Shown here piece by piece: positions 402 through 24,644 of a DNA stretch of 25,893 nt. The stretch spans positions 1 through 25,893 of the forward strand of contig WJKD01000448.1 of NCBI GenBank assembly GCA_014729315.1, given 5' to 3'. This DNA comes from Promethearchaeota archaeon (GTDB taxonomy: Archaea; Asgardarchaeota; Lokiarchaeia; Sigynarchaeales; SOKP01). The position numbers and the translations under genes were made by a program. Below the pieces are notes generated by a model that was not told the DNA's origin, made no database searches, and saw nothing but the letters and a program-made list of their open reading frames with translations. Position 1 is the first letter of the stretch. Each line of letters starts with the position of its first letter.

Positions 402-761
402 ATGAAAATAGTTGTTAAAAACAAAAATATTTCCCGTAAAGATTTTGAAAAACATTTTCAATTACTTTTTCACTCAAATCTTCTCTCAAATAATAATATT
501 TCTTATAGCATTACTGAAACAAAACTTAGAAGTGTTGATTCATCAGTTCTTATGGTGTTAGTCAGTTCATCTGGAGTTGTATTAACAACATTAATTTCCT
601 GGTTATTTAAATTGGCAATCACAAAAGGTTCTCAAAAAATTGTTATTCAAGGAAAGAACGGTAAAAAAATTGAAGTTCCTGCAGGCACCTCAGAAAAAGA
701 TATTGATAAGTTTCTTGAAAAAGCAAGTAAATTAAGTGTAGACAGTATTTTTATAGAATAG
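402..761 (+). CDS. EACC1-like small membrane protein
   Basis: This 119-residue protein has a soluble N-terminal part, one strong hydrophobic helix at about residues 49-73, then a short beta-hairpin-like stretch (KIVIQGKNGKKIEVP, residues 79-93) and a C-terminal helix. A small alpha/beta protein with a central membrane helix followed by a 'basic strand-turn-strand' matches the EACC1 (effector-associated constant component 1) family. That family is found beside CHAT, caspase or trypsin effectors in bacterial conflict systems. It is thought to be a fixed accessory part, possibly tying the effector complex to the membrane. Here it is the first full gene, 33 bp before a CHAT protease, which fits. 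The ATG at 402 has no clear ribosome site. Family assignment is by recognition only; an unrelated small membrane protein is possible. Confidence 0.6.
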   Translation: MKIVVKNKNISRKDFEKHFQLLFHSNLLSNNNISYSITETKLRSVDSSVLMVLVSSSGVVLTTLISWLFKLAITKGSQKIVIQGKNGKKIEVPAGTSEKDIDKFLEKASKLSVDSIFIE

Positions 762-794
762 CATTATAAATGATTAGTTATAGGAAATAGTAGT

Positions 795-3239
795 ATGAAT
801 TGTATGCCTACTGTTTTAAGTATAACGAAATTGCATGAAACACAATATAGATTTACTCTTTCTAATCCTGGCGAACCGTTTTTAGGACCGCTACAAAGGA
901 TTTTTGAGGTAAAAGTAAATCCTGCCGTTCTCAATGTACTCGGTAATAGGATAATAGAATCTGCAAAGCAAGCAAATTTAGAAGGAGATATATCAAACGT
1001 TCATATAGAATCCTTTAAAAAATCTGGGAAATTACTTTATTCTAATATATTTCCCAAACGGGGTGGTGCCCAACCATTAATTGATGAATTAGCCTTAGTT
1101 AATACCCCACTTTTAATTAACACTGATGATCCTAACATTTTATGGGAATTGATGTACGATGGTACTGACTTTTTGGGGATAAAATTTATCACAGGTAGAA
1201 GACTTAAGACTAGTATGGTTCCTCCTGGAGTTCCTAAAAAACGTAAGGAGTGGCGCTGCTTGGTAATATCTAATCCCACTTGTGATCTTGATGAAACAGA
1301 ATTAGAGACATCCAAACTTGTCGAAGCACTTCAGAGGAAAGACGTTATATGTGATTATTTAAATGGTTCGGATGCCAATTTAGCTGAATTAATTATAAAA
1401 CTTGATGAGAATGAGTATGATATTATTCATTACGCTGGCCACATAGTATACGATGATTCTGCGAAACAATATGCGTTGAGGTTAAATAATAATGAATTAT
1501 TTTGGGCTATAAATATTAGAAATGAAGTTAAAGGTTCACCTATTGTATTTTTGAATGGCTGTTGGTCAGCTTGTGAAGTCAAAAGTCATACGGATTCATT
1601 ACATAGTATGGAAAGTTTAACAGAAGCGTTTTTGGAAACTGGGGCTCGATTAGTTGTGGGATCATTATTTGAGATTCCCGATGAAGGTGCCAGGATTTTT
1701 GCTGAAGTCTTTTACGATAATGTTTTAAACGGTGAAATGGTTGGTGAGGCATTAAGAAAAGCTCGCTATATAACAATGGAAGATAGGAAATACGGTGCCA
1801 CATGGGCAAGCTTTATTATGTATGGTGATCCATGCCTCCAAGTCGAATTCAAAAAAGATGAAATCGAAGAGCTACTTAATACTATAAATATGACTCGAAA
1901 GGATTTCGATATTTCTGCCAGTCGTATTATTGAACAAACTGTAATGTATGGAAAAGAATCTGGCAGAATATCTACAGTACATTTGTTTGCTGCTATAATT
2001 GCTGATGAAAATAGTGAAATTGCCAAGACACTTAATTACCAAAAAATTCCTGCTGAAAAATTGAAAAATGCTTTCCAAAAAATATTTTCAATAGCAGAAG
2101 ATTTAGATTTTGAGAAATCAGATAAAAAAAAAATAAAATTTTCAACTAATCTTGAAGCTATTCTTGAATATGCAAAAGAACAAATTAAAAATAACGACAA
2201 AGAAAAAATTACTGTTTCGGACCTAAACAACGCTTTCTCTGAAAGAGCAGGTGGGCCAACGCTTCAAATTTTGAAAAAGTTAGGAGTTGATTTTCAGAAA
2301 AACAAGGAAGAAACAGCAACTTCAGAAAGTAAAACATCGAAAACATCTCCATACGATATTAGAATTGAGTGGCCTAGACCTTCGCCGCCTGAATATCTAC
2401 GAAATAAGGATGCTTATTCATCATTAGCTTGGGAAGTACTTAGATGCTCGATAGAAAGCGCGATAAAAGCACATTCCATGATAATTTCAACATTTCATCT
2501 TTTTATGGGATTATTACTAGGTCCTTGTTTTTTAATTTATAGAACTCTTCGGCAACAGGGTTTTTCACCCTTTCAATTATTAATTTCTATTTCTGATATA
2601 ATTGAAAATGAAATAGATACCATTATAGATCATTCATCAATTAGATTTTCAGAAAATGTCAAAAGAATTTTAATCAGAGCAGATGAGATCGCTAAAGAAT
2701 TAAACCAGGACAAAGTAAACGATACCGATTTATTTACTGCATTTATACAAACTGGGGGCGGTGGGACAGGGAAATTACTTTCACAATTAGGAATTGAGTT
2801 AAGTACAATTTTTTATCCTATTTTTACAATTGATGGTGAAATTGACAAAAATTTTGTTGATGAAAAAATATATTCAATATTTCAAAAATCTGAAGATTAT
2901 GCAAATAGAATTAAATGTGGATTTGTCTCACGTCCTCATCTTTTTTATGGAATATGTTCAATTCCAAATAGTAAAATTAAGGACTATTTACCAGACATTG
3001 TAATTAAATTAGATGAATTAGATAATGCTATTCAACAAATTTTAGGTATAACTGAAAATGGCCCTAAAATAAATTTTGAACTCCCTTTTATGACTTTAGG
3101 ATTAAAACAAACACTAATCCTGGCTTCAAATATTTGTAAAAAAGAAAATTCTCAAAAGATTACTGAAGATCATTTTATTAAGGCACTTCTGACTCCAACG
3201 CAAAGTAGTATAAAAACATTGTTGAATAGATTGAAATGA
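795..3239 (+). CDS. CHAT protease fused to Clp-repeat (Clp_N-like) domains
   Basis: An 814-residue soluble protein. Residues 1-150 are a pre-CHAT region containing the typical WELMYDG stretch (117-123). The CHAT (caspase-like cysteine protease) domain spans about 152-350. Its catalytic His lies in HYAGH (212-216, likely H216) and its catalytic Cys in NGCW (C256), and it ends with a YGDP motif (343-346). The C-terminal 450 residues contain about three double Clp-repeat units, at about 370-500, 535-670 and 690-814. Each has an 'HLF' helix (for example STVHLFAAI at 393-401), like the adaptor-binding N domains of ClpA/ClpB. There is no AAA+ motor in this protein. The ATG at 795 is preceded by AGGA. 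The Clp repeats suggest it docks with, or mimics, the N domain of the ClpB-like ATPase encoded downstream. The protease call is firm; the substrate is unknown. Confidence 0.85.
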   Translation: MNCMPTVLSITKLHETQYRFTLSNPGEPFLGPLQRIFEVKVNPAVLNVLGNRIIESAKQANLEGDISNVHIESFKKSGKLLYSNIFPKRGGAQPLIDELALVNTPLLINTDDPNILWELMYDGTDFLGIKFITGRRLKTSMVPPGVPKKRKEWRCLVISNPTCDLDETELETSKLVEALQRKDVICDYLNGSDANLAELIIKLDENEYDIIHYAGHIVYDDSAKQYALRLNNNELFWAINIRNEVKGSPIVFLNGCWSACEVKSHTDSLHSMESLTEAFLETGARLVVGSLFEIPDEGARIFAEVFYDNVLNGEMVGEALRKARYITMEDRKYGATWASFIMYGDPCLQVEFKKDEIEELLNTINMTRKDFDISASRIIEQTVMYGKESGRISTVHLFAAIIADENSEIAKTLNYQKIPAEKLKNAFQKIFSIAEDLDFEKSDKKKIKFSTNLEAILEYAKEQIKNNDKEKITVSDLNNAFSERAGGPTLQILKKLGVDFQKNKEETATSESKTSKTSPYDIRIEWPRPSPPEYLRNKDAYSSLAWEVLRCSIESAIKAHSMIISTFHLFMGLLLGPCFLIYRTLRQQGFSPFQLLISISDIIENEIDTIIDHSSIRFSENVKRILIRADEIAKELNQDKVNDTDLFTAFIQTGGGGTGKLLSQLGIELSTIFYPIFTIDGEIDKNFVDEKIYSIFQKSEDYANRIKCGFVSRPHLFYGICSIPNSKIKDYLPDIVIKLDELDNAIQQILGITENGPKINFELPFMTLGLKQTLILASNICKKENSQKITEDHFIKALLTPTQSSIKTLLNRLK

Positions 3240-3277
3240 TCTATTAATAACGTAATAGTGTTTTAGGAAATACTTAC

Positions 3278-5620
3278 GTGGAAACGCCTAAAAAGAATTC
3301 AAATAATGAAATAAATAAAAACTCTTCCAAAGAAGAAAGCAAAGATATTCATTCTTTTATAAAGATACTTTCTGATTCTAATAGTAGAGAAGATATCTTA
3401 CCGCAACCGCTCTCCAAAATTAATACAAGTGAAATATTCCCTAAAAATAACAAACCAACTGCAGATGAAATAATCGAAACAGTAAAGGCACTTTTAGCTC
3501 CAAAACCAATAGATATAAAATCAGATAATATTTATATTGAAGCATTCTTTTCTAAATTATCAATAAGTAGAGATACTCACGAACGTCTGGATCATTACAT
3601 CAAAGATGCAGGGATTTCGACTTTACCTACAAAAGTAGGTGGGAATATTAAAGTTCCTAATAAATTGCTTACTTATGAAAAAATAAAAGAATTGGGACAA
3701 GGAGCTTTTACTATTGTATGGTTAGCCCAAGATTCATCATCTTGGTTAGAACGTAAAGTTGTTTTAAAAATTCCCAAAAGGCAACAAATAGATAAAAACT
3801 GGACTGAACGTTTAAAGCATGAATCAAAAGTATGGTGGCATTTATCTGAATATAAGCATCCAAACATCTTGAACTTGGAGGATATTAAGGAAGATGGAAT
3901 CTTTACTTTCTTTGTAACAGAATATTTGGATGGAGGTAGTTTAGAATCTGTAATACATAATATTCCGAAGTCCCAAAAAATAAATACAATTCAACAAATA
4001 CTTATTCCTATCTGCAAAGCTCTTTCTTTTGCACATCAAAACAAGATTATTCACGGTGATATAAAGCCTTCAAATATTCTTGTCTCTCAAGATTTTAATC
4101 AGGTTAAACTTGGAGATTTTGGATTATCATATTTCATTCATGATCTGATTAATTCAGGGAAAAAACTAGAAGGTACACTACTCTTTCTTGCACCTGAATC
4201 ATTCAATGGTGAGAAAACGACTCAAACAGATATTTATGCTTTTGGTGTTACACTATATTATTGTCTTACTGGAGAGTTCCCTTTTAAAGATATTACTAAT
4301 CAAAAGCAACGACTTATAGATGAACGATTAAAATTTAAGCTTGATATTTCAAAAAAAATACCAAACATACCAAATTGGTTAGAAAATGTAATTCAACGTT
4401 GTCTTTCACCATTACCCGAAAATCGTTTTACTGATGCAACTGAACTATTGCATTTCATTATACCGTATATTAATCCTAAAAAAGCAAATCGAATTATATT
4501 AAGCGTTTGGAGTAATCCTGAAAACCAGACAATAGATTACGATATTGAATTCAGAGGCAAACGAATACGTGAATTACTTACTGTTGAAGTAACTCATGAA
4601 ACAATTCGTGGTCTATGTAAACAATGGGATAAAATTGGTAATCTTGCAATAAATCGAATAAATAAAGGAAATGAAATCTCCACATCGAATGATATTGATG
4701 AAGAAATTCATACTCTGTTGCATTCAATTTCGGAAGATGGTGCTCATTTTATGCTTGGTTTAAAAGTACGCAAAATATTGACAAAGCATTCCTATTCAGG
4801 TTTTGAGCTAATCTATGATCCCAGGTTAACATCCATTCCATGGGAATTATTTCAAATTGATGGGACTTGTCTTTGTCGTCGTTATCCCATGTCTCGATTA
4901 CCAAAATTATTACGTAGAGAACCAAAAAATCATTTAATGGAAACTGATGAAAAGATTAACGTATTAATAATTTCAAATCCAAGTGGAGATTTGCAAGGTG
5001 CAGAAGAAGAATCTAAACAACTTGTGAAAGAATTCGAAAAAGCTCTATTATTTAAAAAAATTGATATCCAAATCGTCAATGATAAGGATGATTTATTCAC
5101 AATCAGAAGTAAAATGCGTCGTTGTCATATAATTCATTATGCAGGACACGCCATTTTTTCTGAAATGCATGGCGATATGTCAAAAAGTGGCCTATTTCTG
5201 CGAGGTGATTTTAATGATCCAGAATCTGGGGATCTTCTTCGAGCAAGTGCACTGGAAGAGCTCTGGGAAGATTGTGCCCCGACCCTAATTTTTGCCAATG
5301 CTTGTGTTTCTGGACGTTCAAGTGTTGGTTCAATTAAAAATAGAGTCTCCAGTGATTCTGCACTCGGATTGGCACAAGCCTTTCTTTCGGCGGGTATTGA
5401 AAATTATATTGGTACAGTATGGAATGCCCCAGATAATGAAGCCACAATTTCATTTGCATGTAAATTTTATAAAAACTTTTTTTCAGGTAATACTATCAGT
5501 CAATCCATGCTATCAGCGAGGAATCATTGCCTTGAAAAATACGGTGAAGAAGATTTAACTTGGGCACGTTATATTTTATTTGGTGATCCGTTCACATATA
5601 TATCAGTAAATCAATCATAA
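3278..5620 (+). CDS. Ser/Thr protein kinase-CHAT protease fusion
   Basis: A 780-residue protein. Residues 1-130 are polar and probably disordered or helical. The kinase domain (about 132-395) looks active: glycine loop LGQGAF (139-144), Lys164, Glu182, catalytic loop HGDIKPSN with Asp261, DFG at 280-282 and APE at 305-307. HGD replaces HRD, as in some bacterial kinases. A linker with IPWELF (520-525) leads into the CHAT domain (about 560-775), with HYAGH (620-624, likely H624) and NAC (C676), ending TWARYILFGDP. The start is GTG at 3278, supported by AGGAAA nine bases upstream; no ATG lies near. Its CHAT and kinase regions closely resemble those of the next gene, so the two are tandem paralogues. 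The kinase may control its own protease or phosphorylate other operon products. Confidence 0.88.
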   Translation: METPKKNSNNEINKNSSKEESKDIHSFIKILSDSNSREDILPQPLSKINTSEIFPKNNKPTADEIIETVKALLAPKPIDIKSDNIYIEAFFSKLSISRDTHERLDHYIKDAGISTLPTKVGGNIKVPNKLLTYEKIKELGQGAFTIVWLAQDSSSWLERKVVLKIPKRQQIDKNWTERLKHESKVWWHLSEYKHPNILNLEDIKEDGIFTFFVTEYLDGGSLESVIHNIPKSQKINTIQQILIPICKALSFAHQNKIIHGDIKPSNILVSQDFNQVKLGDFGLSYFIHDLINSGKKLEGTLLFLAPESFNGEKTTQTDIYAFGVTLYYCLTGEFPFKDITNQKQRLIDERLKFKLDISKKIPNIPNWLENVIQRCLSPLPENRFTDATELLHFIIPYINPKKANRIILSVWSNPENQTIDYDIEFRGKRIRELLTVEVTHETIRGLCKQWDKIGNLAINRINKGNEISTSNDIDEEIHTLLHSISEDGAHFMLGLKVRKILTKHSYSGFELIYDPRLTSIPWELFQIDGTCLCRRYPMSRLPKLLRREPKNHLMETDEKINVLIISNPSGDLQGAEEESKQLVKEFEKALLFKKIDIQIVNDKDDLFTIRSKMRRCHIIHYAGHAIFSEMHGDMSKSGLFLRGDFNDPESGDLLRASALEELWEDCAPTLIFANACVSGRSSVGSIKNRVSSDSALGLAQAFLSAGIENYIGTVWNAPDNEATISFACKFYKNFFSGNTISQSMLSARNHCLEKYGEEDLTWARYILFGDPFTYISVNQS

Positions 5621-5670
5621 CAATTAAATATTCATATCCTTCAATTCAATGTATATTTTAAAAAAATTTT

Positions 5671-8600
5671 ATGTCTAATGATTATACAATAGATACTGTT
5701 GGAATCCATTTTGGAACGACTAATTGCAGAATAGGTGCCGTAAATCCTATTAATTTAAAGCCCATCATCTGTGATCCTATTCCTTGTTGCATTTGGAAGT
5801 CTCCAGCAACGAGTAATATATACGTTGGTATTGATGCATATGATCACGTTGGTTCACATCCTGAACCTATTATTTACATTAAAAGATCATTAAGCAATCA
5901 GACTTTTCGGATAACAGACGAAGAAATTACTTCCGAACAAATTTTTTATTATATTTTTAATGAGGCAAAACGGCAAATTCAAATAAAAATTAACAATATT
6001 GACAAGAAATTACGGTTAGATATAACAAATGTGGTTGTTGCAATACCCACGAAATATGACGATTCACAAATTGTATTAGCTGATGAAGAAGAAAAAATAA
6101 ATAGGAAAAATTACTTAAATTCATTGATCGAAGCATTAAGATTAGCAAATATAAAGAATGTACATTTCATACCGTATTCATGTGCTATTACGTACTATTG
6201 TATAAATTATAAAATAAGCAGGGGATTAGTCTTTTATTCTTATTTAGGTGGAGGTTTACTCGAAACCTCATTGATTAAAATAGATGAAAATAAATTTGAA
6301 ATAATACAAACTTGTTCAGATGATGAAAACTGTGGTATAAATATAGATCGTGATATTGCGAATATTCTGCAAAAACAAATATCAGAAGAAGGTTATTGTT
6401 TTGACTTAAAAATTAATGATAATCATGATGATAAAATTAAATTCGATAAACTTAAAACTATTGGAGAAATTGCTAAAAAAGGGCTTTCTAAATCTGATGA
6501 ATTTAGAGTAACTGATCTTAATAGAATCAAAGATAAAATTGGAAATACTATCAATATTGAAATTTTGTTGAAACAAGCTGAACTTAGAAAAATTCTTACA
6601 CCAATCTTTGAGAAAACAGCTGAAATTTCTGTTAAATTAATTGAGCAAGCTTATGAGGAACATAATGATTTAGAGAAAATTAGCTATATAGTATTTGCTG
6701 GGGGGTCTTGCAATATTCCATTAATTCAAGAGATGCTTTATGAAAATCTAAATAATAATTCGCTAATTAAAAATTATTTAAGTATAAAAAATAATATAAT
6801 ATATAATAATCCAGAAAACTCAGTAATTTTAGGAACTATTAAATATATTACCAAAATTTTAAAAACCAAGGACAGAAAAAAAGATGACTTTTTTAGTATT
6901 CTTGATTTACCTGAAATTCACATTAAAAAAAGTATAAAACAACCTCTAAAAATTCTAAATGTTACTGAAGAAATTTTACCATTCGCAGCTGATAGAAAAG
7001 AATCAATATTAGAAAATTTTAACATATATCAAGAAATCCCCAAAATCTACCCATATATAGGATTAATCGAAACATATAGTTATATTAAACTACCATGTAA
7101 ACTTGGCGATTTTACTCTTCTTAAATCATTAACTCGTAATAATTATTATTGGTATGTTTTAGCAATAGATACTCGAACAAGAGATCGCTCTGAATTCCTG
7201 CTAGGAATTCCAATTTATCATCCCTTGAAAGGCGAATATAGAAAAAATTTTGAGTATGTGAAAAAAATTTGGGATGAACTTAAAAATATATCTAAAAATC
7301 TAAATCACCCTAACATCCTCAGACTTGTGGATACATTAAGGATTAATGAGAAGCAAACCCATATCCATCCCTTTGAAGTTTTCTTATCAGAATATTTGGC
7401 AGGAGGAGATTTAAGATCATCACAATATAAATTATCAAGAAATATTACAACTATACTCCATATTTTATATAACCTAATCGTTGGAGTAAAACACATCCAT
7501 TCTAAAGAAATTATTCATGGAGATTTAACTCCTGAAAAAATATATTTGTCTCCTGAATTTAAAGAAGTTAAAATTGGTGGTTTTGAAAAATCTATATGGC
7601 AGAAAGATGTATCATCTAAAGGTGGTTTAAATTCTATGTTAAAAAATGATATTAATAATTTATTCAGTATACTGCTTTACTTATTTACTGGCAAGTATAT
7701 TCAAAACATACAAATTGTTTCAAAAAATTTAGAATCAGAAATCAAAAATATTAATATGCCGAATTGGTTGAATCAGCTCATTACTGAATTTTTATCTTCC
7801 AATGTTAATATTTATGATATTCATGAATTACACGACAAAGTAAATTTTCATGTAAGCCCATCGAAGCAGCATATTGTAACTGTTGAAGCTGTTTATCTAC
7901 ATCAAGAGAAACAAATTAGGCTTAAGTTTACAGATAAAGATAACAAAAATAATGATTACTATTCATTTCACCTTGATTTTCTTACTATTAAAGAAATTCA
8001 ACAGCTTTGGATAGAAATAGGAGATCATGCTATTGAGAGAATGGTGTTAAGTTATGATCTATTAACTAACAACAGCCAAATAGAAAAGTTAAATAATATG
8101 ATTCATAACAATCTTAAACTAATAAGTAAAACTGCAGTAAGAAACATTCTCCCAAGAATTGAAGAAAAAATAAAGAAGAAAACATACATATATTTTGAGT
8201 TTCAATATGATCAAGATTTAGAAAGTCTTCCTTATGAATTATTTGAAATTGAAGGATCAAATCTCTGCCAATGTTTTCCAATATCACGATCTCCTAATAT
8301 TACTAATAAAAAGGACTATAATAACCAGATACAAAAGAATAATACAATTCGAATTTTGATTATCAAAAACCCATGCGGAGATTTACCTCAAGCAGAAAAT
8401 GAAGGCAATGAACTAAAATCCAAATTTACAAAATTAAATAGAAATAATTTTGAAATAGAAGTCATAGATTCCACATATCGATTTTTACAAATGAAAGAAT
8501 TGATTGAGGAAGGAGAATTTCAAATTATTCATTTTGCAGGTCATGTATTATTTTCTGAAAATAAAATTGATTATTTAAATAACGGCTGGTTACTCAAAAT

Positions 8601-9012: not shown

Positions 9013-10089
9013 TTGAATATTCCATTTCTTGAATATGTAACAATTATGAAAACAACTTTAAAGTCTATCTCTTTATTTAACAAAAAAAAAGAGAATAACA
9101 ACGATAAAAATAATCCAACGTATTATTTGGACTTACAGCAAAGTGAGATAGAAGTGGTTACTTCATCAACCAGCACTATGAACGATACGAAAATACCTAA
9201 AAGCTCAGAATCATTTCCTTTATACTATCGGGGAAGTATTCTAAGGTTCAATTTTAAACTTGTTTTTAAGAATTTATTACCTGAAGGAAGTTCAGTTGCT
9301 ATTTTTTCAGCACAGAGCACTACAAAATCATTCAATAGTGAAGAAAGAATTCCATTGTTACAAAAAATTGGTACATGGATCAAAACAAGAACAAAAAATC
9401 TTTGGTTGACCTTAATATTACAAAAACCTACTCAATTTAATTTAAACGAATTTTCAACTATTCAACACCATACTATTGATGAAGATTTTGATGAATCGGA
9501 AAGTGACGCTTTACAACCGATATCTAGCACAATGAAGTCAACAGAAAGAGAGGATATTGACCTTAGTAAACAGATTATTGAAGATGATTTTAATATATAT
9601 AGATATAAATCATTTTTTACAAACGAAGATATAACAAGTTATAAGTTTTCTATGAATTTGGACAGCAAAGGTTTTAATGTTGTAATACCTTCTTCTGAAG
9701 CGATTTGGATTTCTCTTAAACCTTTAAACGGAAGCTGTGAGCCATTAGCCTTAAAAATACCTGAAATTTGTCTTAAAAATATGATCTATATAATTGCACA
9801 ACCAGCATATTTACGATTACATGGTAAAAATACAATCATCCGAAAAGTATTTAAGTTTAGTAGGAATGATAATGCACTCATAAATATATATCATGATGTT
9901 AATACAAAGTTACCAAATACTTCTGTAAAAAAAATGAATGAAGATTCTATCGAAATCAAAGTTAATTTGAAATCATTAAAGAAATCTAAACAAGTTTTTT
10001 CTAAATCAAAAATAGCTTATTTACGATTTTTTGATACAATAAGTAGTAAAAAACTAAGTGCCATAATTCCAATTGTTCTTGATAATTAA
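9013..10089 (+). CDS. Unrecognised 358-aa protein
   Basis: No known family is recognised. The N-terminal 60 residues are polar and low-complexity (Lys/Asn/Ser-rich), with an A9 run at 9082-9090. Residues 65-100 and 205-358 look beta-rich, with alternating hydrophobic residues, and a short acidic stretch lies at about 154-164. There is no signal peptide or membrane helix. The start is uncertain: TTG at 9013 gives 358 residues and ATG at 9046 gives 347, neither with a good ribosome site. It sits between the last CHAT protease and the motor genes. An adaptor between them, or a protease substrate, are possibilities from position only. Confidence 0.6.
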   Translation: MNIPFLEYVTIMKTTLKSISLFNKKKENNNDKNNPTYYLDLQQSEIEVVTSSTSTMNDTKIPKSSESFPLYYRGSILRFNFKLVFKNLLPEGSSVAIFSAQSTTKSFNSEERIPLLQKIGTWIKTRTKNLWLTLILQKPTQFNLNEFSTIQHHTIDEDFDESESDALQPISSTMKSTEREDIDLSKQIIEDDFNIYRYKSFFTNEDITSYKFSMNLDSKGFNVVIPSSEAIWISLKPLNGSCEPLALKIPEICLKNMIYIIAQPAYLRLHGKNTIIRKVFKFSRNDNALINIYHDVNTKLPNTSVKKMNEDSIEIKVNLKSLKKSKQVFSKSKIAYLRFFDTISSKKLSAIIPIVLDN

Positions 10090-15775: not shown

Positions 15776-15781
15776 AATCAA

Positions 15782-17764
15782 ATGGATATTGTAAAGATAT
15801 TCAATTATTTAGAGATTGATATAGAAGAGTATAAAAAAGCTCTATTAAGTACTATCGTGGAATCAAAATGTGATTCTATATTTCCAGAACACATTTTAGC
15901 TGCATTAATTAAAATCCCTGATAGTTATATTCATCGAAGAATAAAACAACAACGATTAAATCCTAATAATGTTTATAAAGTATTAACTCAGTGTGTTGAA
16001 CAAACGGATAGAAAACTTCCTCCAGTATTTTCAATTGAAGAAGCTTCTCATAATCAAAAACTAAATGATTTGGAACAAAAGCTTAATGAGTGGCTAGCAC
16101 AAAATAAAAAAATTCAAAAAATTAAAGATCGAGATTTTGCTGGTCTTATAGTAAATTTTATTGAGAATGATGTTATCGAAAACCTTATTGAATTTGCTCG
16201 ATTGGATTGGGAAGATCTAGTGAGTAATCTTTCTTGGCCCCCTACTATAGTAGAAAAGTCCATACAAATATGGAGTAAAGAATCCTCGAATTTAATGGTG
16301 GATACTTGTTTTGACAAATCAGGGAAAAAACTTATAAATGCACTAATAGCAGAGGTTGAAGGGCTGGGATTAAAACAATATAGTGCAGAAGCTTTATTTA
16401 TTGCTTTACTAAATTTTGAACCAAGTATTTTGGAACTTGCCATTAGCACGCAGCTGACGAGTAAGGATTCATACATTGTTAGCACTAAAGATTTAGGTTT
16501 AGAATTAAGAAATAGTATACGCAGACCTAGAATAATGAAAAATTTAGGTAATATTTCTCAGGGCAATTGTACTGAAATTCTTATTTCAATATTTAATAAA
16601 GCTTCAGAAATTGCATCGAATGAGGGTAAAACGAAAATTTCAGTTCGTGATGTGGCAGAATCTTTATCCTGGACTGAATCAAAAGGACGATTAGGTAAAT
16701 TACTTAAGGCGTTTGGAGTTGATCTTAATAAAGTATACGATTTTCTGGAAACTTACACAGAGGAACTCGAGGAGGAATTAATATTAGTACCGATCACACA
16801 ACTGGAACAAAAAGTTAAGGAAAAAATTATCGGACAAAATCACGCTGTTGAACGAATTCTGCCTTTAATTAAAAGACTTCGTTTTGGTTATCGCCGACCT
16901 GGCAAGCCAGCTGGGGTGTTTTTGTTTATGGGGCCAAGTGGAACTGGAAAAACTCAAATGGCTAAAGTGCTTGCAGAAATTCTTTATGGTTCAGAAGAAA
17001 ATATGTTAATGCTTGAAATGGGTCAGTTCGGTACAAAAGAGACAAAAAGTATGTTTATCGGAGCAGCACCTGGATATGTCGGCTATGGTGAAGGAAAATT
17101 GACAAATGGATTGCGGGATAATCCTGAGTGCGTAATATTATTCGATGAAGTCGAAAAAGCAGATCCTTTAGTATTAGATGTACTGTTAAGATTTTTAGAT
17201 GAAGGGAAAATTGATGATCCTGCAGGTCCTGTTAGAGATGGAAGCAAATGTTTAATCATTTTAACATCAAACTTTTTTGCTGATAAATTACATGAATTTG
17301 AGGAGCAAATTGAAAGCACAGATAATTCCCAAAAAGAGGAAATGTATAAAAATCTTCGTAATGCGCTTTTAGATGTTGGGAAAAGTGAAGGTCAAAACGA
17401 AAAAGTTCAAAAATTTTTCCGTCCAGAATTTATATTTCGTATTGATGAGATAATTCTCTTTCGGTCGTTTAATCGAGATAATTACAAAAAAATTGCAGAA
17501 TTAGGTCTCGAAAATGAAATTGCATATCTTAAAAAAAATTATGACTACAATGTTTCCTATGACAAAAAAATACTTGACATGATTGCAATTGAAAGTGTGA
17601 AGCGAAGTAACGAAGGAGCTCGAGTAATAAATAGACTGATTAATGTACATGTAGTCAATCCAATAATAGATTTTCTCACAGCTCATCCCAGTGAGGATTT
17701 TGATCATTTAACAGTATCTTATAATAAAAATACAAAATTAATTAACGTGAGTAAAAAGTCATGA
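15782..17764 (+). CDS. ClpB/ClpA-like AAA+ unfoldase with a single ATPase ring
   Basis: A 660-residue protein. Two Clp-repeat N-domain-like segments (about 1-95 and 177-320) are followed by one D2-type ClpA/B AAA+ module (about 335-655). Visible motifs are Walker A GPSGTGKT (384-391), pore loop GYVGYG (431-436), Walker B ILFDE (452-456), Arg finger region FFRPEF (R547) and sensor-2 GAR (612-614). The D1 ring of ClpA/ClpB is missing, so it is shorter than the usual 750-860 residues. No IGF/IGL loop for docking ClpP is seen, which favours a ClpB-like unfoldase or disaggregase that does not feed ClpP. AGGAG at 15766-15770 precedes the ATG, and the gene overlaps the next by 4 bases (ATGA). Its N domains resemble the repeats on the first CHAT protease. 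Confidence 0.88.
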   Translation: MDIVKIFNYLEIDIEEYKKALLSTIVESKCDSIFPEHILAALIKIPDSYIHRRIKQQRLNPNNVYKVLTQCVEQTDRKLPPVFSIEEASHNQKLNDLEQKLNEWLAQNKKIQKIKDRDFAGLIVNFIENDVIENLIEFARLDWEDLVSNLSWPPTIVEKSIQIWSKESSNLMVDTCFDKSGKKLINALIAEVEGLGLKQYSAEALFIALLNFEPSILELAISTQLTSKDSYIVSTKDLGLELRNSIRRPRIMKNLGNISQGNCTEILISIFNKASEIASNEGKTKISVRDVAESLSWTESKGRLGKLLKAFGVDLNKVYDFLETYTEELEEELILVPITQLEQKVKEKIIGQNHAVERILPLIKRLRFGYRRPGKPAGVFLFMGPSGTGKTQMAKVLAEILYGSEENMLMLEMGQFGTKETKSMFIGAAPGYVGYGEGKLTNGLRDNPECVILFDEVEKADPLVLDVLLRFLDEGKIDDPAGPVRDGSKCLIILTSNFFADKLHEFEEQIESTDNSQKEEMYKNLRNALLDVGKSEGQNEKVQKFFRPEFIFRIDEIILFRSFNRDNYKKIAELGLENEIAYLKKNYDYNVSYDKKILDMIAIESVKRSNEGARVINRLINVHVVNPIIDFLTAHPSEDFDHLTVSYNKNTKLINVSKKS

Positions 17765-19080
17765 TAGATTTTAATAAAAATTGCTTAATAGCAGGACGTT
17801 ATAAAACTAAAAAAAAATTAGGAGCAGGTGCTTTTGGAAGCGTCTTTCTAGCTGAACAAGAAGCATTCGATATGACTTTTCGTAGTGTAGCTTTAAAATT
17901 GTTTAATAAGGATATAAAAAATAGTATGGAAGCAAGGCAAATTTTTAATGATGCAATAGTCTTGTTGGATTTAATAGAAAATTGTTTTGATCCATATATT
18001 CAATCACTATTCATATACGTGTATGATATTGGATCAACAACAATAAAGGATGATACTGAGGGATTGCTTGATAGAGGCTATATTACAATGGAGTTGATGG
18101 AAACGGATTTACGTACTATTATTGGTCCCACTGGTAGTGATAAATTTAGAAGAACAACGGTAACTGAAGCATTAAATTACATGAAACCTGTTATTTCAGC
18201 CTTGGCTTTTATGCACTCACAAAAATACCCAATAATTCATCGTGACTTAAAACCGGGCAACATTTTATTTCGAGTTGGGAAAGAAAACGGGAAAGATAAA
18301 ATACAAATTAAAGTAGCTGATTTTGGGCTTGCAGTTCAAATATTCAATTTTCTTGAATTACCCGACATGGGGGGTACAATCGCTTATCAGGATTTAGAAA
18401 GTTTTACAATAGGAAAGGCCTCTACTGAAAGTGACGTCTATGCTATAGGTATTATGTTATACGAACTCTTAACAGGAAAATATCCGTATGACATTGAGTT
18501 TGCTAATAATTTATCGCCGAATACTCAGTTAAGTAAGGATATCCTGAATGATTGTTTAGAGCACGCAATGTCTAAACCAGTTATTCCACCATCCGATCTA
18601 AATTATGAATTAAAAAAATATTTATGGTTGGAAGAAATAATCATGGCTTGTATAGAGCCATCCCGTATAAATCGCACAAAAAATGCAAAGCAGCTGAAAT
18701 TACTTATTGAGAATGATGAGCCTCCTCCTCCTCCTCCTCCAACTTCTAAGTATAAAGACCTTGTTGAGTTAGGCAAAAACGCAATGGGTAGAGGAAGAGA
18801 ACAGTGGAATAGTGCAGAAAAATTTTTTAAGCAAGCCATACAGATATCTCGAAAACATTGTGATGCTATATCATTATTGGCACATTTACTAATCGAAATG
18901 GATAAAATAAAGGAAGCTGAATTGTTATTACGTGAGCGAATTGAGCAGAATAGAGAATGCTGCCATATATATCAAGAACTTGCATATTTGTATGGAAAAC
19001 GAGGATTGCCAAGTCTTCAAGCTGATTATTTAAGTCAGATGAAACAAATAGGGGAATGCAAATACTCGATATTTAATTGA
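17761..19080 (+). CDS. Ser/Thr protein kinase with C-terminal TPR repeats
   Basis: A 439-residue soluble kinase. It has glycine loop LGAGAFGSV (20-28), Lys46, catalytic loop HRDLKPGN (160-167) and DFG (187-189), so it should be active. The usual APE is replaced by a QDLE stretch (210-213). A seven-proline linker (321-327) leads to about two TPR units (335-430). No membrane helix or PASTA-type sensor is present. The start codon overlaps the stop of the ClpB-like gene (ATGA), so the two are probably translated together. It is the stand-alone counterpart of the kinase fused to CHAT earlier in the operon. Likely substrates are other operon proteins; this is inference. Confidence 0.87.
   Translation: MIDFNKNCLIAGRYKTKKKLGAGAFGSVFLAEQEAFDMTFRSVALKLFNKDIKNSMEARQIFNDAIVLLDLIENCFDPYIQSLFIYVYDIGSTTIKDDTEGLLDRGYITMELMETDLRTIIGPTGSDKFRRTTVTEALNYMKPVISALAFMHSQKYPIIHRDLKPGNILFRVGKENGKDKIQIKVADFGLAVQIFNFLELPDMGGTIAYQDLESFTIGKASTESDVYAIGIMLYELLTGKYPYDIEFANNLSPNTQLSKDILNDCLEHAMSKPVIPPSDLNYELKKYLWLEEIIMACIEPSRINRTKNAKQLKLLIENDEPPPPPPPTSKYKDLVELGKNAMGRGREQWNSAEKFFKQAIQISRKHCDAISLLAHLLIEMDKIKEAELLLRERIEQNRECCHIYQELAYLYGKRGLPSLQADYLSQMKQIGECKYSIFN
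18721..18741 (+). repeat. CCT microsatellite encoding a poly-proline linker
   Basis: Six CCT units and one CCA encode seven consecutive prolines between the kinase and TPR parts. The C-rich tract stands out in the AT-rich gene. Slippage would change linker length in whole codons without a frameshift. Confidence 0.8.
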
Positions 19081-19165: not shown

Positions 19166-20956
19166 TTGAAAGAAGAATCATCTACAAAAAACAAATTAGT
19201 TAAAATACTATATGATCTAAAAACGGCAATTGAAGGGCATGTTGTTGCCTATAAACACTTAGTATCAACAGAAGATCCTCACAAACTTGCAATGGTTTAC
19301 TCAAAAAATGCGGAAGACGAGTGGTTAAAAATACACAAAAAAAATCCTGAAGATTGGCTTTCCTGTCATCATTTAGCGATTTTATATCACGCTCATGCTT
19401 TTCATTTAGAATTAAGTGGGAATACCAAACAGGCCGTTCAATTTTGGAAAAATGCTCATACTTACTGGAATAAATTATTTAAATTAAATGAGCCAATTGA
19501 TAGATTTCACAACATTGTTAAAAAAATGGATCGCTATAATGAAAATGAACATAGTGAAAAATTCAATAAATTAAAACAAAGAATTATTGATGATTTGCTG
19601 AGTGTTCATAGTAAACTATATGAATATTATAGTAATCAGAAAAAAATAGAATTGAAACAAAAGGCGGATTATCATTATGAACTATTAGAAAAATCACCTT
19701 TTAAAGAATCCCATGAAATTCTTGAAAAGATTTATGAGAATCAATATGGGAATAAAGTAAAAAAATTAATATTGAACATTGAAAAAAAACAATCGTATGA
19801 GGATCAAATTTCTTTTAAACAAGATTTCGATGTACTTATAAATGAAATATCAGAGCTTAATGAGAAAAAAATTTCTTTAACCACTGTTTTACGTGATTTA
19901 ATTATTTTAGCATCTTGGAGTATACGTATTCGGTTATATCAATGGATTTTAGATTTGGCAAAATTAAGAAAAAAACAAAGCTCTGATGAAAAAAGATTTA
20001 ATGACCTAAATCAACAACTACAAATTTCAGCAAGAAAAATCGATAAATTGAAACGGAAAATACAAGGTGGAAAGCATTTACTATCTGGTAAACATGATGA
20101 ACTTGTACGTGAACATAATGATAATGTTGGATACTTAAATTCACTTCGTGATAGACTTATAAGAGAAACTCAAAATCATATTAGCAAATTAGCCGATTTA
20201 TTTGAATATTTTGATTCCTGTATACTATATCTAGAAAAATTAAGTACGTTAAATGATGTGACAAGTTTACAAAGAGCAACATTTGCTTTACAGAATGCCG
20301 TCAATGAAGTTATTATTATTGAAAAAAATTATAGAGGAATAAATGAACATTCAGTCTTTCGAGAATTAAAACAGGAATGTCAAAAATTAATAAAAAAAAT
20401 AAATATGTATCAGCCTAAAAAATTACAATCAATTGAACCTGTTGATGAACAGCAGAATCTTAATTTATGGGAATTAACTGAAATAAGTGAGGATGAAAAT
20501 CCATATCATAACACTTCCTTTTTATTATTAGAGACAGAATTACCTAGCATTGCTGATGATATAGACATTAATAATTTAATCAAGAATATGAAATTAAAAA
20601 AACAGCGAATTTTAGAAAAAAGAGCTAAGGCAGGCAAGTATCAAGTATTAGGGAAAAAAATTAAGCATCAGGACTTGAATAAAGCTATACTTCGGCTTGA
20701 TAAACCTGAAGATTTGGTTAAAGATATGTTACTTCAACATCAAGCTCATCATGCAGATACTAATAAAATTAAAGAAAATTTATCTAAATTTGAATTACCA
20801 TCACCAGAAAAAATTCCTATTACTTTTTCACCAACAGTATTTTTTTACTTTTCTATAGCGTCATTACCTAAAAAAGATGAGCTTAAATGGGAAAATGATT
20901 TCGAAGAAGATGATGAAGGAAAGCAAATTAAACCAGAACTTAAATGGCCTACTTAA
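19166..20956 (+). CDS. Coiled-coil helical protein of the DnaK cluster
   Basis: A 596-residue, highly charged helical protein of no recognised family. Residues about 45-105 resemble a TPR-type helix pair, about 265-345 are a strong coiled coil, and the tail (575-596) is acidic. There is no signal peptide, membrane helix or J-domain HPD motif. The start is TTG with AAGGAG five bases upstream. It directly precedes the GrpE-like and DnaK genes, so it may be a co-chaperone or adaptor for that pair; this rests on position only. Confidence 0.6.
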   Translation: MKEESSTKNKLVKILYDLKTAIEGHVVAYKHLVSTEDPHKLAMVYSKNAEDEWLKIHKKNPEDWLSCHHLAILYHAHAFHLELSGNTKQAVQFWKNAHTYWNKLFKLNEPIDRFHNIVKKMDRYNENEHSEKFNKLKQRIIDDLLSVHSKLYEYYSNQKKIELKQKADYHYELLEKSPFKESHEILEKIYENQYGNKVKKLILNIEKKQSYEDQISFKQDFDVLINEISELNEKKISLTTVLRDLIILASWSIRIRLYQWILDLAKLRKKQSSDEKRFNDLNQQLQISARKIDKLKRKIQGGKHLLSGKHDELVREHNDNVGYLNSLRDRLIRETQNHISKLADLFEYFDSCILYLEKLSTLNDVTSLQRATFALQNAVNEVIIIEKNYRGINEHSVFRELKQECQKLIKKINMYQPKKLQSIEPVDEQQNLNLWELTEISEDENPYHNTSFLLLETELPSIADDIDINNLIKNMKLKKQRILEKRAKAGKYQVLGKKIKHQDLNKAILRLDKPEDLVKDMLLQHQAHHADTNKIKENLSKFELPSPEKIPITFSPTVFFYFSIASLPKKDELKWENDFEEDDEGKQIKPELKWPT

Positions 20957-20972
20957 AATTAATGAGGTAAAA

Positions 20973-21497
20973 ATGCAAAATCAAGAACCATCATTGAAAT
21001 ATTCTAAAAGAGAAATAAAATATTTAAAGGAACCTATTAATCAATTCTCGCAAATTTGGCAATTATCGAAAAAATATGCTGAAGTATTGAAAAAACAGAA
21101 AGAACATCATAATGAAAATCAACATAAGATGGTTATTAAATATTGTGAAAAGATACATGATCTAAAAAAAATTATAAATGAACATAGAATTTCAAAAAGT
21201 GAAGAAGTAAATAAAATACTCGATCAGTTAGGAATTTTATTTGAGGCTTTTAATGATATTTTACATGAAAATAAATACAAAATGCAGATCCTTGACGGAC
21301 GTCATTGGGATGAAATTCAAGATGGTGAAGCTTACATTGAAGGTAATTTTGAAAGCAATCAAGTAACTGTAGCAGTCGTTGCAGATACAATAAAGCCCTT
21401 AATAAAATATGAAAATAATATCATCCAATCTGCGCGAGTAATAGTTCATGTACCAATAAAAAAAGATATATCTAAAAAAGGAGAATTTAATGAGTAA
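20973..21497 (+). CDS. GrpE-like nucleotide exchange factor
   Basis: A 174-residue protein from the ATG at 20973, which has GAGG (20964-20967) upstream. A longer frame from 20877 would overlap the preceding gene by 80 bases and is rejected. The N-terminal ~100 residues form a long helical region rich in Lys and Glu. The last ~55 residues look like the GrpE beta domain: DGRHWD, then short strands ending in IIQSARVIVHVP, matching the 'vlRpArVvV' end of GrpE. It overlaps dnaK by 8 bases, and the grpE-dnaK pairing supports the call. Overall similarity to housekeeping GrpE is low, so it is probably a dedicated partner of this DnaK. Confidence 0.6.
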   Translation: MQNQEPSLKYSKREIKYLKEPINQFSQIWQLSKKYAEVLKKQKEHHNENQHKMVIKYCEKIHDLKKIINEHRISKSEEVNKILDQLGILFEAFNDILHENKYKMQILDGRHWDEIQDGEAYIEGNFESNQVTVAVVADTIKPLIKYENNIIQSARVIVHVPIKKDISKKGEFNE

Positions 21498-24066
21498 TCT
21501 TATAGTAGGTGTTGATTTAGGTACTACAAATTCATGCATTTCCATCCGTGGTAGTCATCCTGATTGTTATGTTGCTGATAATATTCCTGGATTCTCTGTT
21601 ATTACCGATCGATTGAAACGTAAATTCACCCCATCGGTTTTATCATATACTGGTAATCCTGAAAAACCGTATGATATTGGTTACGTGGCAAAGGGTAATA
21701 TTGAAGGAAAATACCCTCCAGTAATGTTTGCTAAAAGACACTTAGGATCAGATAAAAAATTCCAATTAGATGATAACTTATTTATATCCCCTGAAGAAGT
21801 TTCAACAGAAATATTGAAATATTTGAAAAAAATGGCAGAAGCAAAACTTAATCAAAAAATTGAGAAATCAGTTGTAACGGTACCAGCTTATTTTACATTT
21901 ACACAAAAAAACTTAACAAGAAAAGCTATAAAAGAAGCAGGTTTTATAGTAGATGATGAGCGATGTATACTTCAGGAACCTGTCGCTGCAGCCTTGACTT
22001 ATACGCAAATAACTGACACAGAATCACTTAGAATCATGGTTTACGATTTAGGCGGAGGAACATTTGATATCACAATATTACAAAAAGAGGGAGATTTAAT
22101 TGAAGTTGTATATCCTGGCGGTGATCATGCTTTAGGTGGATATGAATTTGATAAGCTGATAGCGGATTACATTATCAACATGTTACAAGAAACTGGTTAT
22201 CATCTAGATTTTGATCTTGAAAACAACATAGAAGATAAAATGAGATATACAAAATTACTTTTAGAAGCTGAACAAGCAAAAATAGAGTTATCACATGTCC
22301 AAGAAGTGCATCTACGCAAGCCTTCATTGTTTAGCGATCATAATGGCGAATCAGTTGTTCTAGATATGAAATTGGATAGACCTACTTTTGAGAAAATGAT
22401 TTCCGATAAGGTAGATTATACTATGGAACTCTGTCATCAAACACTAAAATCATCAAATTTTAAAATTGATAAGATTGACAAAATTATCATGGTAGGAGGA
22501 TCTACTTATATACCATTAATAAGTAGAAGACTTAAGAAGGAATTTGGAAAAGAACCACAGTATTTAGAGCCAGATTTGTGTGTTGCAATTGGCGCGTCTA
22601 TTCAGGCATCTCAATTTGGTATCGTCGTTGAGCAAGATGTCCGCGTTAAATTTGATTTAATACCAACATTAACAGTATCTGATAAAGAAATCATTTCTGG
22701 GAAAGTAACATTATTAACTGGCAAACCTGTGGAGAGCGACTATACTATCGAAATTGAAAATCAATTAAAAGCTTTTAAAGAAAGCTCAAATATAGAAGAA
22801 GAAGGTAATTTCTTTTTTGAAGTCCCTCTTCAAGAGAATTGTGAAAATACCATTATTATAAAAGTTTTTGACAAAAATGGCATTTCGAAAGCAGACACTG
22901 AAATAAAAATTATACACTCTACGGATGCCAATGTTGAAGAAACAACTACTACTGAAATTACTGGAACTGTAAACCTACCAAGAGCAATCTTCATTAAAAG
23001 AGAAAGTGGAATGACTGAATTAGCTCCCAAAGGAGCTCAATTACCTTTCGAAAAACGAGAAGAATTTAATATTGTTAAGAAAGGAAATATTTCACTCGAT
23101 GATGAATTAGAATTAAACATTCAATTATTTGAGGAAGACTTGTTTTTAGGTGATGTGACAGTAACAAATATCCCTGGTAATATTAGTGATGACGATCCAG
23201 TTTTTGTTGGCATCAAAGTAACTCCTGATTTTCAAATAATTGTAAATGCACAACTTCCAACAGTAAAACGAGAAGGGAAACATGTTTTTTCGATTAATAT
23301 AGAATCAGTTCAAAGCGTTGACAATCTCGTTAAAGAATTCAACAATCTAATGGAAGACTGGGAACAGCTAAAAATGCTTTTAAGCCAGGATGAATTAGCT
23401 AAAATTGGGGTGCGAATTAATCGGTATTTTCAACGTGTCGAGAGTTGTCTCAAAGGAGTAGATAAGGATACTACAGAAGCTTCTAAAGTTTTGAGTACAC
23501 TAAACATAATGATAAAAGATTTAAAAGGGAAAGGTCCACTTATTTTACAGCCAAGTAAGGAAAAATTTGAAAAACTTTGTGCAGAGACTCGTAAAATGAT
23601 TAGTGCTGCTGAACAAGTAGATACAACTGCAAGTGAAATGGCAATGGGGCGAACTTTAGATGCTCTTATTGAACAAGGTAAAACTGCCCATTCCCGAAGA
23701 GATCAACAAGCCTGGAAAACGATCTATCGACAAGTTGAGGAACTTTATGCTAAAGCAGCTCAGATTGTTGATCATTCGAAACCTGGAGGAGAATTGCCAC
23801 CTGATCCTCATCAACTATTACTAAGTTTAGCATATTTGTTAAATGAAATGAGAGAAGAAGCAAATCAACAACAGACTCATCCGTATTATGCACGATGGAT
23901 GAAACAGATTGTAGAGATTCAAGTTGAAATTCAAGAACTTGGTAAAATTACAGATAATAGTGCATTAATGCCGAAAATACAACAATTATATAGCCAAAAA
24001 ATTGCCCCTTTGAGGGATGAAATTCATGGAGGCCCTGTTGAAGATAAAGATATCTTTTTACGATAA
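21490..24066 (+). CDS. dnaK: DnaK/Hsp70 chaperone, long form
   Basis: An 858-residue Hsp70, about 220 longer than ordinary DnaK. The ATPase domain (1-375) is intact: VDLGTTNS (8-15), VPAYF (131-135), QEPVAAAL (162-169), YDLGGGTFD (185-193) and VGGSTYIP (335-342). Between it and the substrate-binding beta domain is an extra beta-rich segment (about 388-478). The substrate-binding part follows, with GTVNLP, LAPKGAQLPF (511-520) and LFLGDVTV (551-558). The C-terminal ~240 residues are helical, longer than the usual lid, and lack an acidic EEVD-like end. AAGGAG precedes the ATG. It overlaps the GrpE-like gene by 8 bases. No DnaJ gene is in the window. It is the active counterpart of the degenerate Hsp70 module on the third CHAT protease. 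Confidence 0.9.
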   Translation: MSNLIVGVDLGTTNSCISIRGSHPDCYVADNIPGFSVITDRLKRKFTPSVLSYTGNPEKPYDIGYVAKGNIEGKYPPVMFAKRHLGSDKKFQLDDNLFISPEEVSTEILKYLKKMAEAKLNQKIEKSVVTVPAYFTFTQKNLTRKAIKEAGFIVDDERCILQEPVAAALTYTQITDTESLRIMVYDLGGGTFDITILQKEGDLIEVVYPGGDHALGGYEFDKLIADYIINMLQETGYHLDFDLENNIEDKMRYTKLLLEAEQAKIELSHVQEVHLRKPSLFSDHNGESVVLDMKLDRPTFEKMISDKVDYTMELCHQTLKSSNFKIDKIDKIIMVGGSTYIPLISRRLKKEFGKEPQYLEPDLCVAIGASIQASQFGIVVEQDVRVKFDLIPTLTVSDKEIISGKVTLLTGKPVESDYTIEIENQLKAFKESSNIEEEGNFFFEVPLQENCENTIIIKVFDKNGISKADTEIKIIHSTDANVEETTTTEITGTVNLPRAIFIKRESGMTELAPKGAQLPFEKREEFNIVKKGNISLDDELELNIQLFEEDLFLGDVTVTNIPGNISDDDPVFVGIKVTPDFQIIVNAQLPTVKREGKHVFSINIESVQSVDNLVKEFNNLMEDWEQLKMLLSQDELAKIGVRINRYFQRVESCLKGVDKDTTEASKVLSTLNIMIKDLKGKGPLILQPSKEKFEKLCAETRKMISAAEQVDTTASEMAMGRTLDALIEQGKTAHSRRDQQAWKTIYRQVEELYAKAAQIVDHSKPGGELPPDPHQLLLSLAYLLNEMREEANQQQTHPYYARWMKQIVEIQVEIQELGKITDNSALMPKIQQLYSQKIAPLRDEIHGGPVEDKDIFLR

Positions 24067-24080
24067 GAAAGGTTGAAAAA

Positions 24081-24455
24081 ATGATTTGTCCGTCCTGTGA
24101 TACTCGTATTCATTCTTTAGTTTCTACCTGTCCTGTTTGTCAATTTGAACTTCTAACATTGATAAAAACAAAAGAAACAACTAACTATTATTTTAACTTG
24201 GCATTAGATGCCTATAATGAAAGCAAATATTATGATGCTTTAGAATCTCTTATTCTTGCACATAATTTTAATCCTGCGGATACAGAAGTCCTTAATTTAT
24301 TGGCTTATGTCTATGTCAAATTAAATCAGTATAAAAAGGCAATAACATATTTTAGTAAAGTATTAAAAGTTGATGCAAAAAATAAAGATACACAACAAGC
24401 ATTATTATGGTTACAATCAAATGGATACGAGATTTCAATAAATAATTTATTCTAA
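24081..24455 (+). CDS. Zinc-ribbon-TPR protein
   Basis: A 124-residue protein. The N-terminal zinc ribbon has four Cys at positions 3, 6, 17 and 20 (two CxxC knuckles). It is followed by about two TPR repeats (32-110), for example YYDALESLILAHNFNP and LAYVYVKLNQYKKAITYF. AAAGG eight bases before the ATG is its ribosome site, 15 bp after dnaK. TPR proteins often bind the ends of Hsp70 or other chaperones, so it may be an adaptor for this DnaK. The frame continues open for 62 codons directly after its TAA stop (see next entry), so the protein may be a shortened version of a longer one. Confidence 0.75.
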   Translation: MICPSCDTRIHSLVSTCPVCQFELLTLIKTKETTNYYFNLALDAYNESKYYDALESLILAHNFNPADTEVLNLLAYVYVKLNQYKKAITYFSKVLKVDAKNKDTQQALLWLQSNGYEISINNLF

Positions 24456-24644
24456 AACTTTAACATTAAACTCACATTATGTAAATTCCGCTACAAAAGT
24501 GAACCAGCAAAATTTAAAATGAAACCAGTTGTTGGTGCTTTTAAGAAAAATGATATTGGACAAATACTTGAAGTAAAAGAAATTAGAGATTCAAGCGGCA
24601 ATGAAGAGATTTGGATCGTTATTGAACCTGTTAAAGTGAAATAA
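24456..24644 (+). pseudogene. In-frame 3' continuation of the zinc-ribbon-TPR gene, SH3-like
   Basis: Right after TAA 24453-24455 the same frame is open for 62 codons to TAA 24642-24644. Its last part from Met at 24519 reads like a small beta barrel: a GAFKKNDIGQILEVKEI stretch, a turn, then EEIWIVIEPVKV, reminiscent of bacterial SH3 domains. No good ribosome site precedes the internal ATG. The simplest reading is a once 187-residue zinc-ribbon-TPR-SH3-like protein split by a nonsense change. Separate translation of a 41-residue peptide, stop-codon readthrough or a sequencing error are alternatives. Confidence 0.45.

Follow-up and report, generated by a model that had tools for sequence, protein, structure and literature searches.

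A Candidate Motor–Chaperone–CHAT Protease Cassette on a Promethearchaeota Contig, With Partial Counterparts in Other Genomes

Introduction

Zorya requires ion flow, the tail of ZorA, and binding of ZorB to the cell wall, and on infection ZorE is recruited to the membrane by ZorAB (PMC11890865, in excerpt). Chaperone-thresholded peptidase conflict systems have been reported preponderantly in multicellular prokaryotes (Kaur et al., 2020; PMC7159879, in excerpt); the same source describes EACC1 systems as two-gene systems, and the available part of its description of the beta-propeller ternary type makes no mention of a motor, an Hsp70, or a Clp ATPase. Here we describe a cassette of 14 genes (A–N) that encodes a ZorA/ZorB-type motor together with chaperones, kinases, and CHAT proteases, from a Promethearchaeota archaeon assembly (GCA_014729315.1, contig WJKD01000448.1, positions 1 to 25,893; this whole stretch of 25,893 nucleotides is referred to below as the window). 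The cassette is probably one undescribed machine, because a distant bacterium has most of these genes arranged in the same order.

Conservation of the Cassette

The list of open reading frames (ORFs) and domain searches of the AT-rich window (G+C 0.306) place the 14 genes at 402–24455, all on the + strand, with intergenic spacings of -8 to 85 bp. Thirteen co-directional, tightly packed genes had been proposed in the original prediction; the shared direction and tight packing stand, but the count is 14 and the last gene ends at 24455 rather than 24644. No terminator-like site was found on the + strand between genes A–N in a scan whose site counts were close to those of shuffled sequence, and searches of the window for tRNA and Rfam RNA found none.

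A scan of genome contigs with an alignment of the half-Clp ATPase encoded by gene I returned eight loci. One of these (L001), in a metagenome-assembled genome (MAG) of Calditrichaceae, encodes 11 of the 14 genes (B, E, F, G, H, I, J, K, L, M, and N) with order and strand kept, at 29–56% identity to the window. The 14-gene arrangement is more than chance, because the order and strand of these 11 genes are preserved in a genome that belongs to a different group. Conserved co-occurrence was the check proposed in the original prediction, for which the adverse outcome was that the genes would never be found together; L001 keeps motor, half-Clp, kinase, GrpE-like protein, Hsp70, and a CHAT–Clp_N protein together. 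Genes A, C, and D were not seen in L001 nor in 17 kb around its upstream end. The predicted single unit is thus supported for the motor, half-Clp, kinase, GrpE-like, Hsp70, and CHAT–Clp_N genes, but A, C, and D fall outside the part common with Calditrichaceae, where the shared CHAT gene is B only; "three CHAT proteases" is thus a feature of the window. L001 also encodes an extra zinc-ribbon/DUF2569 gene after B, and a gene upstream of B with a sub-threshold zf-HC2 match.

A shorter form occurs in a Planctomycetia MAG (L002), which retains the order I, J, K, L, M, N, with only weak matches for K and L (E 4e-10 and 1e-4). Before I is a long gene whose TPR matches are weak, and a CHAT–Clp_N gene lies on the opposite strand. 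N is followed by a 486 amino acid (aa) gene that has no Pfam match, then by bpMoxR (5.3e-55), and then by two others that Pfam also leaves unmatched, the first of which is perhaps a vWA protein, as judged by eye only. At this locus (L002/L100; G002 C193), a 535 aa gene, located before the one with TPR matches, has a weak TCAD9 match (E 0.0026). A contig of genome G361 encodes I, J, and K with two Hsp70 genes. In a Desulfobacterales genome (L126; G632 C187), I and J are oriented convergently to two genes, one of 823 aa and one of 1403 aa, the latter encoding a STAND NTPase–WD40 protein with a weak TIR match. Genes I and J are adjacent at all five loci seen to have a half-Clp of the gene I family, and the six other loci of the scan (L003–L008) match in the AAA module only.

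CHAT Protease Genes

Genes B, C, and D encode three different CHAT protease fusions, as had been predicted, and the CHAT His and Cys motifs are intact in all three, including the otherwise degenerate D. Gene B (795–3239) encodes a CHAT protease (residues 135–345; Pfam 8.3e-27), with His in HYAGHI and Cys in NGCWSA, fused to three Clp_N-like domains (Clp_N, 4.4e-16), of which the first is identified by Pfam, the second by ClpC N-domain chains, and the third by self-alignment only. Gene C (3278–5620) fuses a protein kinase (Pkinase, 5.9e-44), which keeps the Gly-loop, HGD (HRD-type), and DFG motifs, to CHAT (2.1e-25). Gene D (5671–9006) combines HSP70 (2.3e-17), Pkinase (4.4e-10), and CHAT (7.6e-15). 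Its Hsp70 is degenerate, with Asp changed to His in the first phosphate loop and the second phosphate motif absent; its kinase is likewise degenerate, with HGD kept and no Gly loop or DFG found by pattern search. Of the predicted kinases, then, those of C and J (see below) have intact motifs, but that of D does not.

A search with gene D at E 1e-10 recovered D itself and P0132 only among the matches listed (7990 candidates). P0132 is a 1135 aa Hsp70–kinase–CHAT protein with the same architecture as D; its contig has the same size and source tag as that of another half-Clp, P0052. Gene C is 31% identical to D over 671 columns and 50% identical to the kinase–CHAT part of P0132 over 668 columns, by which C and D both appear to derive from a single Hsp70–kinase–CHAT fusion. 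The Calditrichaceae MAG (G001) has ten CHAT domain matches genome-wide.

Upstream of B, gene A (402–761) encodes a 119 aa protein with one predicted transmembrane (TM) helix (residues 47–65, by hydropathy). The match to EACC1 (PF19953), on which the proposed EACC1-like membrane protein depends, is weak and below the cut-off (16 bits, E 0.013; curated cut-off 23.6). No homologue of A was matched in L001/L097 at E 1e-3, an absence from the Calditrichaceae copy that is not firm because A is short, and a search of four other genomes for the EACC1 family gave none over the cut-off.

Motor Genes

Genes F and G encode a predicted motor pair. Gene F (10141–11721) encodes a ZorA/MotA-type channel subunit with a long helical cytoplasmic tail, and gene G (11727–12557) a ZorB/MotB-type subunit with a TM helix containing Asp19 and an OmpA-type peptidoglycan-binding domain (Pfam OmpA, 2.5e-11). 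The top PADLOC profiles, ZorA3 for F (2.3e-16) and ZorB3 for G (3.6e-19), agree with the MotA/MotB-type, ZorAB-like motor that had been predicted. The Pfam channel family is not matched by F itself; PF01618 (MotA/TolQ/ExbB) is precomputed on 4 of 10 listed homologues of F, and Thr and Gly are invariant in the channel block of an 11-row alignment. F is 43% identical to its L001 counterpart. G matches MotB chains in the PDB, and the motifs YSD and GHTD...NWELSSAR are common to the window and L001. A relative of F, P0129, is annotated in a Candidatus Magnetomoraceae bacterium, this family comprising multicellular magnetotactic bacteria. Such bacteria have been called obligatorily multicellular (PMC10907252, in excerpt).

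Gene E (9013–10089), preceding the motor pair, encodes a conserved protein with no Pfam or PADLOC match; a homologue is present in L001, and the predicted structure of E has a predicted local distance difference test score (pLDDT) of 36.5.

Chaperone, Kinase, and Scaffold Genes

Gene I (15782–17764) encodes a 660 aa AAA+ ATPase (AAA_2, 5.7e-38) with Walker A/B, GYVG pore, and FRID motifs. The ClpB-like ATPase of the original prediction is confirmed as Clp type AAA+, but it is a half-Clp: a Clp_N region (1.8e-6, with no single stretch passing alone) and one ClpB-D2-like ring, or single AAA_2 module, which matches the last part of ClpB profiles only. There is no obvious ClpP loop, only LGL tripeptides. 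A tree of the ATPase region was built from 71 rows, including every third of the broad hits P0018–P0120 and excluding the shorter P0015 (483 aa). A 100/100 branch separates 55 rows, classed as half-Clp from their length, from 11 long ClpB/ClpC-type rows, which are not a single group, and 5 others, on a tree that carries a warning of long branches; 17 close relatives, including those of the window and L001, are on one 100/98 branch. By this tree, the half-Clp of gene I is a clade of its own.

The predicted DnaK is borne out by gene M (21490–24066), which encodes an Hsp70 (HSP70, 8.6e-72) with 54% identity to L001 over residues 1–849. For gene L (20973–21497), the predicted GrpE-like protein is recovered by predicted fold but not by sequence family, there being no Pfam GrpE match. 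The best of five models has a mean pLDDT of 68.8 (the other four, 40–47), and its 12 top Foldseek matches are all GrpE/GrpEL1 chains (best E 3.4e-4), with TM-scores, by query length, of just 0.30–0.48; that gene L folds like GrpE thus holds by predicted fold. A GrpE search of the whole Calditrichaceae genome (G001) at E up to 1 gave four places, none of them on the contig of the L001 copy. The ORF of gene L opens at 20877, and 20973 is the likely start, avoiding overlap with K.

Gene J (17761–19080) encodes a Ser/Thr protein kinase (Pkinase, 2.3e-31; Gly-loop, HRD, and DFG intact) with TPR. Gene H (12572–15775) encodes a 1067 aa TPR scaffold (TPR_19, 1.5e-12; 33% identity to L001), and gene K (19166–20956) a helical/coiled-coil protein by eye, with no family over cut-off in Pfam or NCBIfam. 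K is 36% identical to the C-terminal half of a 1152 aa L001 protein (13352–16810); the N-terminal half of that protein has a weak match to window K as well, which points to an internal duplication. Gene N (24081–24455) encodes a zinc-ribbon and TPR protein, with TPR matches at residues 69–100, two CxxC seen by eye in the translation, and 39% identity to L001. Beyond it, a 41-aa ORF (24519–24644, +), ending where the original prediction ended, may be a gene fragment. Directly downstream of the operon is an apparently broken DDE_Tnp_1 transposase in two overlapping-frame pieces (164 and 198 aa; 24761–25803, -).

Distribution

The larger genome searches scored about three or four candidates per genome, so that half-Clp counts are lower bounds. 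With the window protein as query, a half-Clp was found in at least 1 of 40 Calditrichota genomes (E 1e-50) and at least 1 of 389 Desulfobacterales genomes (E 1e-55), and at least 21 of 392 Planctomycetota genomes gave a match (E 1e-50). Two of the Planctomycetota matches (5.4e-90 and 9.3e-81) belong to the gene I family; the remaining 19, none stronger than 1.3e-53, are in open frames of 589–1068 aa, and the 11 of them included in the tree fall outside the half-Clp branch. The Planctomycetia half-Clp as query again gave at least 2 of 392 Planctomycetota (E 1e-60). For the motor, profile searches gave one full-length and one weak match in the 40 Calditrichota genomes, weak matches in 18 of 392 Planctomycetota (7.5e-16 to 9.9e-11, mostly over about 100–130 of 521 positions), and none in 321 Desulfobacterales genomes at 1e-30.

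Proposed Function and Alternatives

We tentatively regard the cassette as encoding an envelope-watching multi-protein machine that would release CHAT proteolysis when triggered, most likely for defense or regulated cell death, a reading that we consider plausible while stopping short of calling it probable. The defense or cell-death role is one that we infer from the company of the genes and from their parts. Consistent with this reading are the 11-gene Calditrichaceae cassette; a motor with a peptidoglycan-binding type domain and a TM Asp; Clp_N common to B and I; Hsp70–kinase–CHAT fusions, which put chaperone, kinase, and protease in one chain; and conflict-type neighbors, namely bpMoxR at the Planctomycetia form and STAND–WD40 with weak TIR at the Desulfobacterales pair.

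In a resting cell, Hsp70 with the GrpE-like protein and the half-Clp would hold or dismantle an inactive CHAT assembly on scaffolds H and K, with B tied to the half-Clp layer through its own Clp_N domains, and with the dead Hsp70 domain of D acting as a bait that links D to the Hsp70 layer. G and F would be moved by damage to the wall or by a change in ion flow, and the F tail would relay this signal to kinase J and the scaffolds; the chaperones would then release their hold, and the CHAT proteases would cut cellular proteins. In the window, C and D may multiply protease output and add further kinase and Hsp70 inputs. More speculatively, and held with less confidence, a wall-anchored ion motor might be wired via Hsp70/GrpE-like proteins, a single-ring Hsp100, and kinases to caspase-like proteases, as a bacterial counterpart of chaperone-guarded apoptosis or the inflammasome, in which dead Hsp70 and Clp_N would serve as baits.

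Several observations weigh against an envelope-watching protease machine. Just two loci with readable context carry a motor. None was found in the Planctomycetia form, either at L002 by BLAST or in the genome by profile at 1e-10, so that the chaperone–kinase–CHAT part can exist without a motor. The Calditrichaceae and Planctomycetia loci each have a single CHAT gene, and no CHAT was found on the half-Clp contigs of G361 (55 kb) and G632 (21 kb). F scores 37 bits against the NCBIfam ZorA cut-off of 100, and the best NCBIfam match of G is flagellar MotD (5.6e-30), below the MotD cut-off. Taken by themselves, the chaperone genes would be equally compatible with housekeeping proteostasis. The cassette might serve envelope-linked protein quality control without an immune role, in which Hsp70, the GrpE-like protein, and the half-Clp extract damaged or aggregated proteins, CHAT degrades them, and the motor powers or gates the process. 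Hsp70, a GrpE fold, and an Hsp100-type ATPase in one unit would suit such a function, as would a protease partner other than ClpP, which is plausible because the half-Clp has no obvious ClpP loop. We nevertheless consider quality control unlikely: the unit is rare and patchy in the genomes searched, unlike housekeeping proteostasis, and two relatives have conflict-type neighbor genes. To our knowledge, every CHAT protease characterized to date is an effector gated by a signal, which also counts against it.

Two or three independent modules lying side by side, with an EACC1–CHAT effector block (A–D) next to a motor–chaperone block (E–N), would account for A, C, and D not being seen in the Calditrichaceae copy, and would accord with the two-gene description of EACC1 systems (PMC7159879, in excerpt). 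However, CHAT–Clp_N gene B is inside the L001 unit and beside the L002 unit (on the other strand), Hsp70, kinase, and CHAT are joined in one protein in both D and P0132, and the P0132 contig shares its size and source tag with a half-Clp contig, which together make separate modules improbable. Most doubtful is a divergent Zorya with its effector genes replaced: ZorA and ZorB are the best PADLOC profiles of the motor pair in both the window and L001, but ZorC, ZorD, and ZorE are not among the PADLOC matches listed for the 14 genes, F is far below the NCBIfam ZorA cut-off and G scores best there with flagellar MotD, as above, and the chaperone–kinase–CHAT part occurs without a detected motor.

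If the cassette does encode one envelope-watching machine, it offers a direct way to study the control of bacterial proteolysis by the state of the envelope. It could then be asked whether chaperones set the threshold of a cell-death switch (proposed, not shown, for ternary systems), and what half-Clp ATPases and Hsp70–kinase–CHAT fusions do. The 11-gene set common with the Calditrichaceae genome is small enough for expression and mutation.

Comparison With Known Systems

A system in which CHAT proteases and Hsp70/Hsp100 chaperones are coupled to a Zor-type motor has not been described previously, as far as our literature search shows, in keeping with the original claim that no described system has this gene set. 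The search found none joining motor, half-Clp, Hsp70, and CHAT, with most subscription papers and bioRxiv preprints lying outside it, and no such system is described in the available parts of PMC7159879, PMC8195603, PMC11890865, and PMC10907252.

As in Zorya, F and G form a MotA/MotB-type pair with a peptidoglycan-binding type domain and a long helical tail, whereas the motor of the window is linked to chaperones, kinases, and CHAT proteases. ZorC, ZorD, and ZorE are not among the PADLOC matches listed for A–H (E up to 0.1) or I–N (E up to 0.001), the lists for C and J being the best 25 of 36 and the best 25 of 34, all kinase-type rows; identification of the window as Zorya was rejected for this lack of ZorC/D/E among the matches listed.

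The ClpB–DnaK–GrpE bichaperone resembles the window in its Hsp100-type ring, Hsp70, and GrpE fold (the last by model), but the window ATPase is single-ring and in a clade of its own, and CHAT proteases are fused and linked to the chaperones. The window was rejected as a ClpB–DnaK bichaperone, because gene I, with 660 aa and one AAA_2, does not have two rings with a middle domain. Dodola is a defense system, and gene I matches its DolB (PADLOC, 1.4e-26) as a single ClpB-like AAA+ module; the window differs in having Clp_N and a large partner set, and DolA is not among the PADLOC matches listed. TPR-CHAT (Csx29) of CRISPR type III-E provides a CHAT protease as a signal-gated effector (PMC10028731, in excerpt), whereas CHAT in the window is fused to Clp_N, kinase, or Hsp70, and no CRISPR components were noticed.

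EACC1 two-gene systems pair a small protein that has one TM helix with a downstream caspase-fold protein whose tail varies (PMC7159879, in excerpt); gene B, with CHAT at 135–345 and a Clp_N tail, has the form of the 3' gene, but the EACC1 match in the window is below cut-off, none was seen in L001, and the pair forms part of a longer gene set. GAP1-N2 GTPase-centric systems have Hsp70, GrpE, and a second, reduced Hsp70 (PMC7159879, in excerpt), but the window has a Clp ATPase, motor, and CHAT instead of GTPase/GAP1, with no TRAFAC-type GTPase or GAP1 domain among the Pfam matches listed for the 14 genes. MoxR–vWA ternary conflict systems are similar in their NTP-driven chaperone threshold, peptidase effectors, and TPR accessories (PMC7159879, in excerpt); the window has Hsp70/half-Clp instead, plus a motor. 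No MoxR or vWA family is among the Pfam matches listed for the 14 window genes (for gene N, the best 25 of 28), and the window was rejected as a MoxR–vWA system on this account, bpMoxR being found only near the relative L002, which lies one gene from a bpMoxR of the beta-propeller type. Because a gene of one such system lies close to this Planctomycetia relative, we place the window in the broad group of chaperone-thresholded peptidase conflict systems, with a core of its own.

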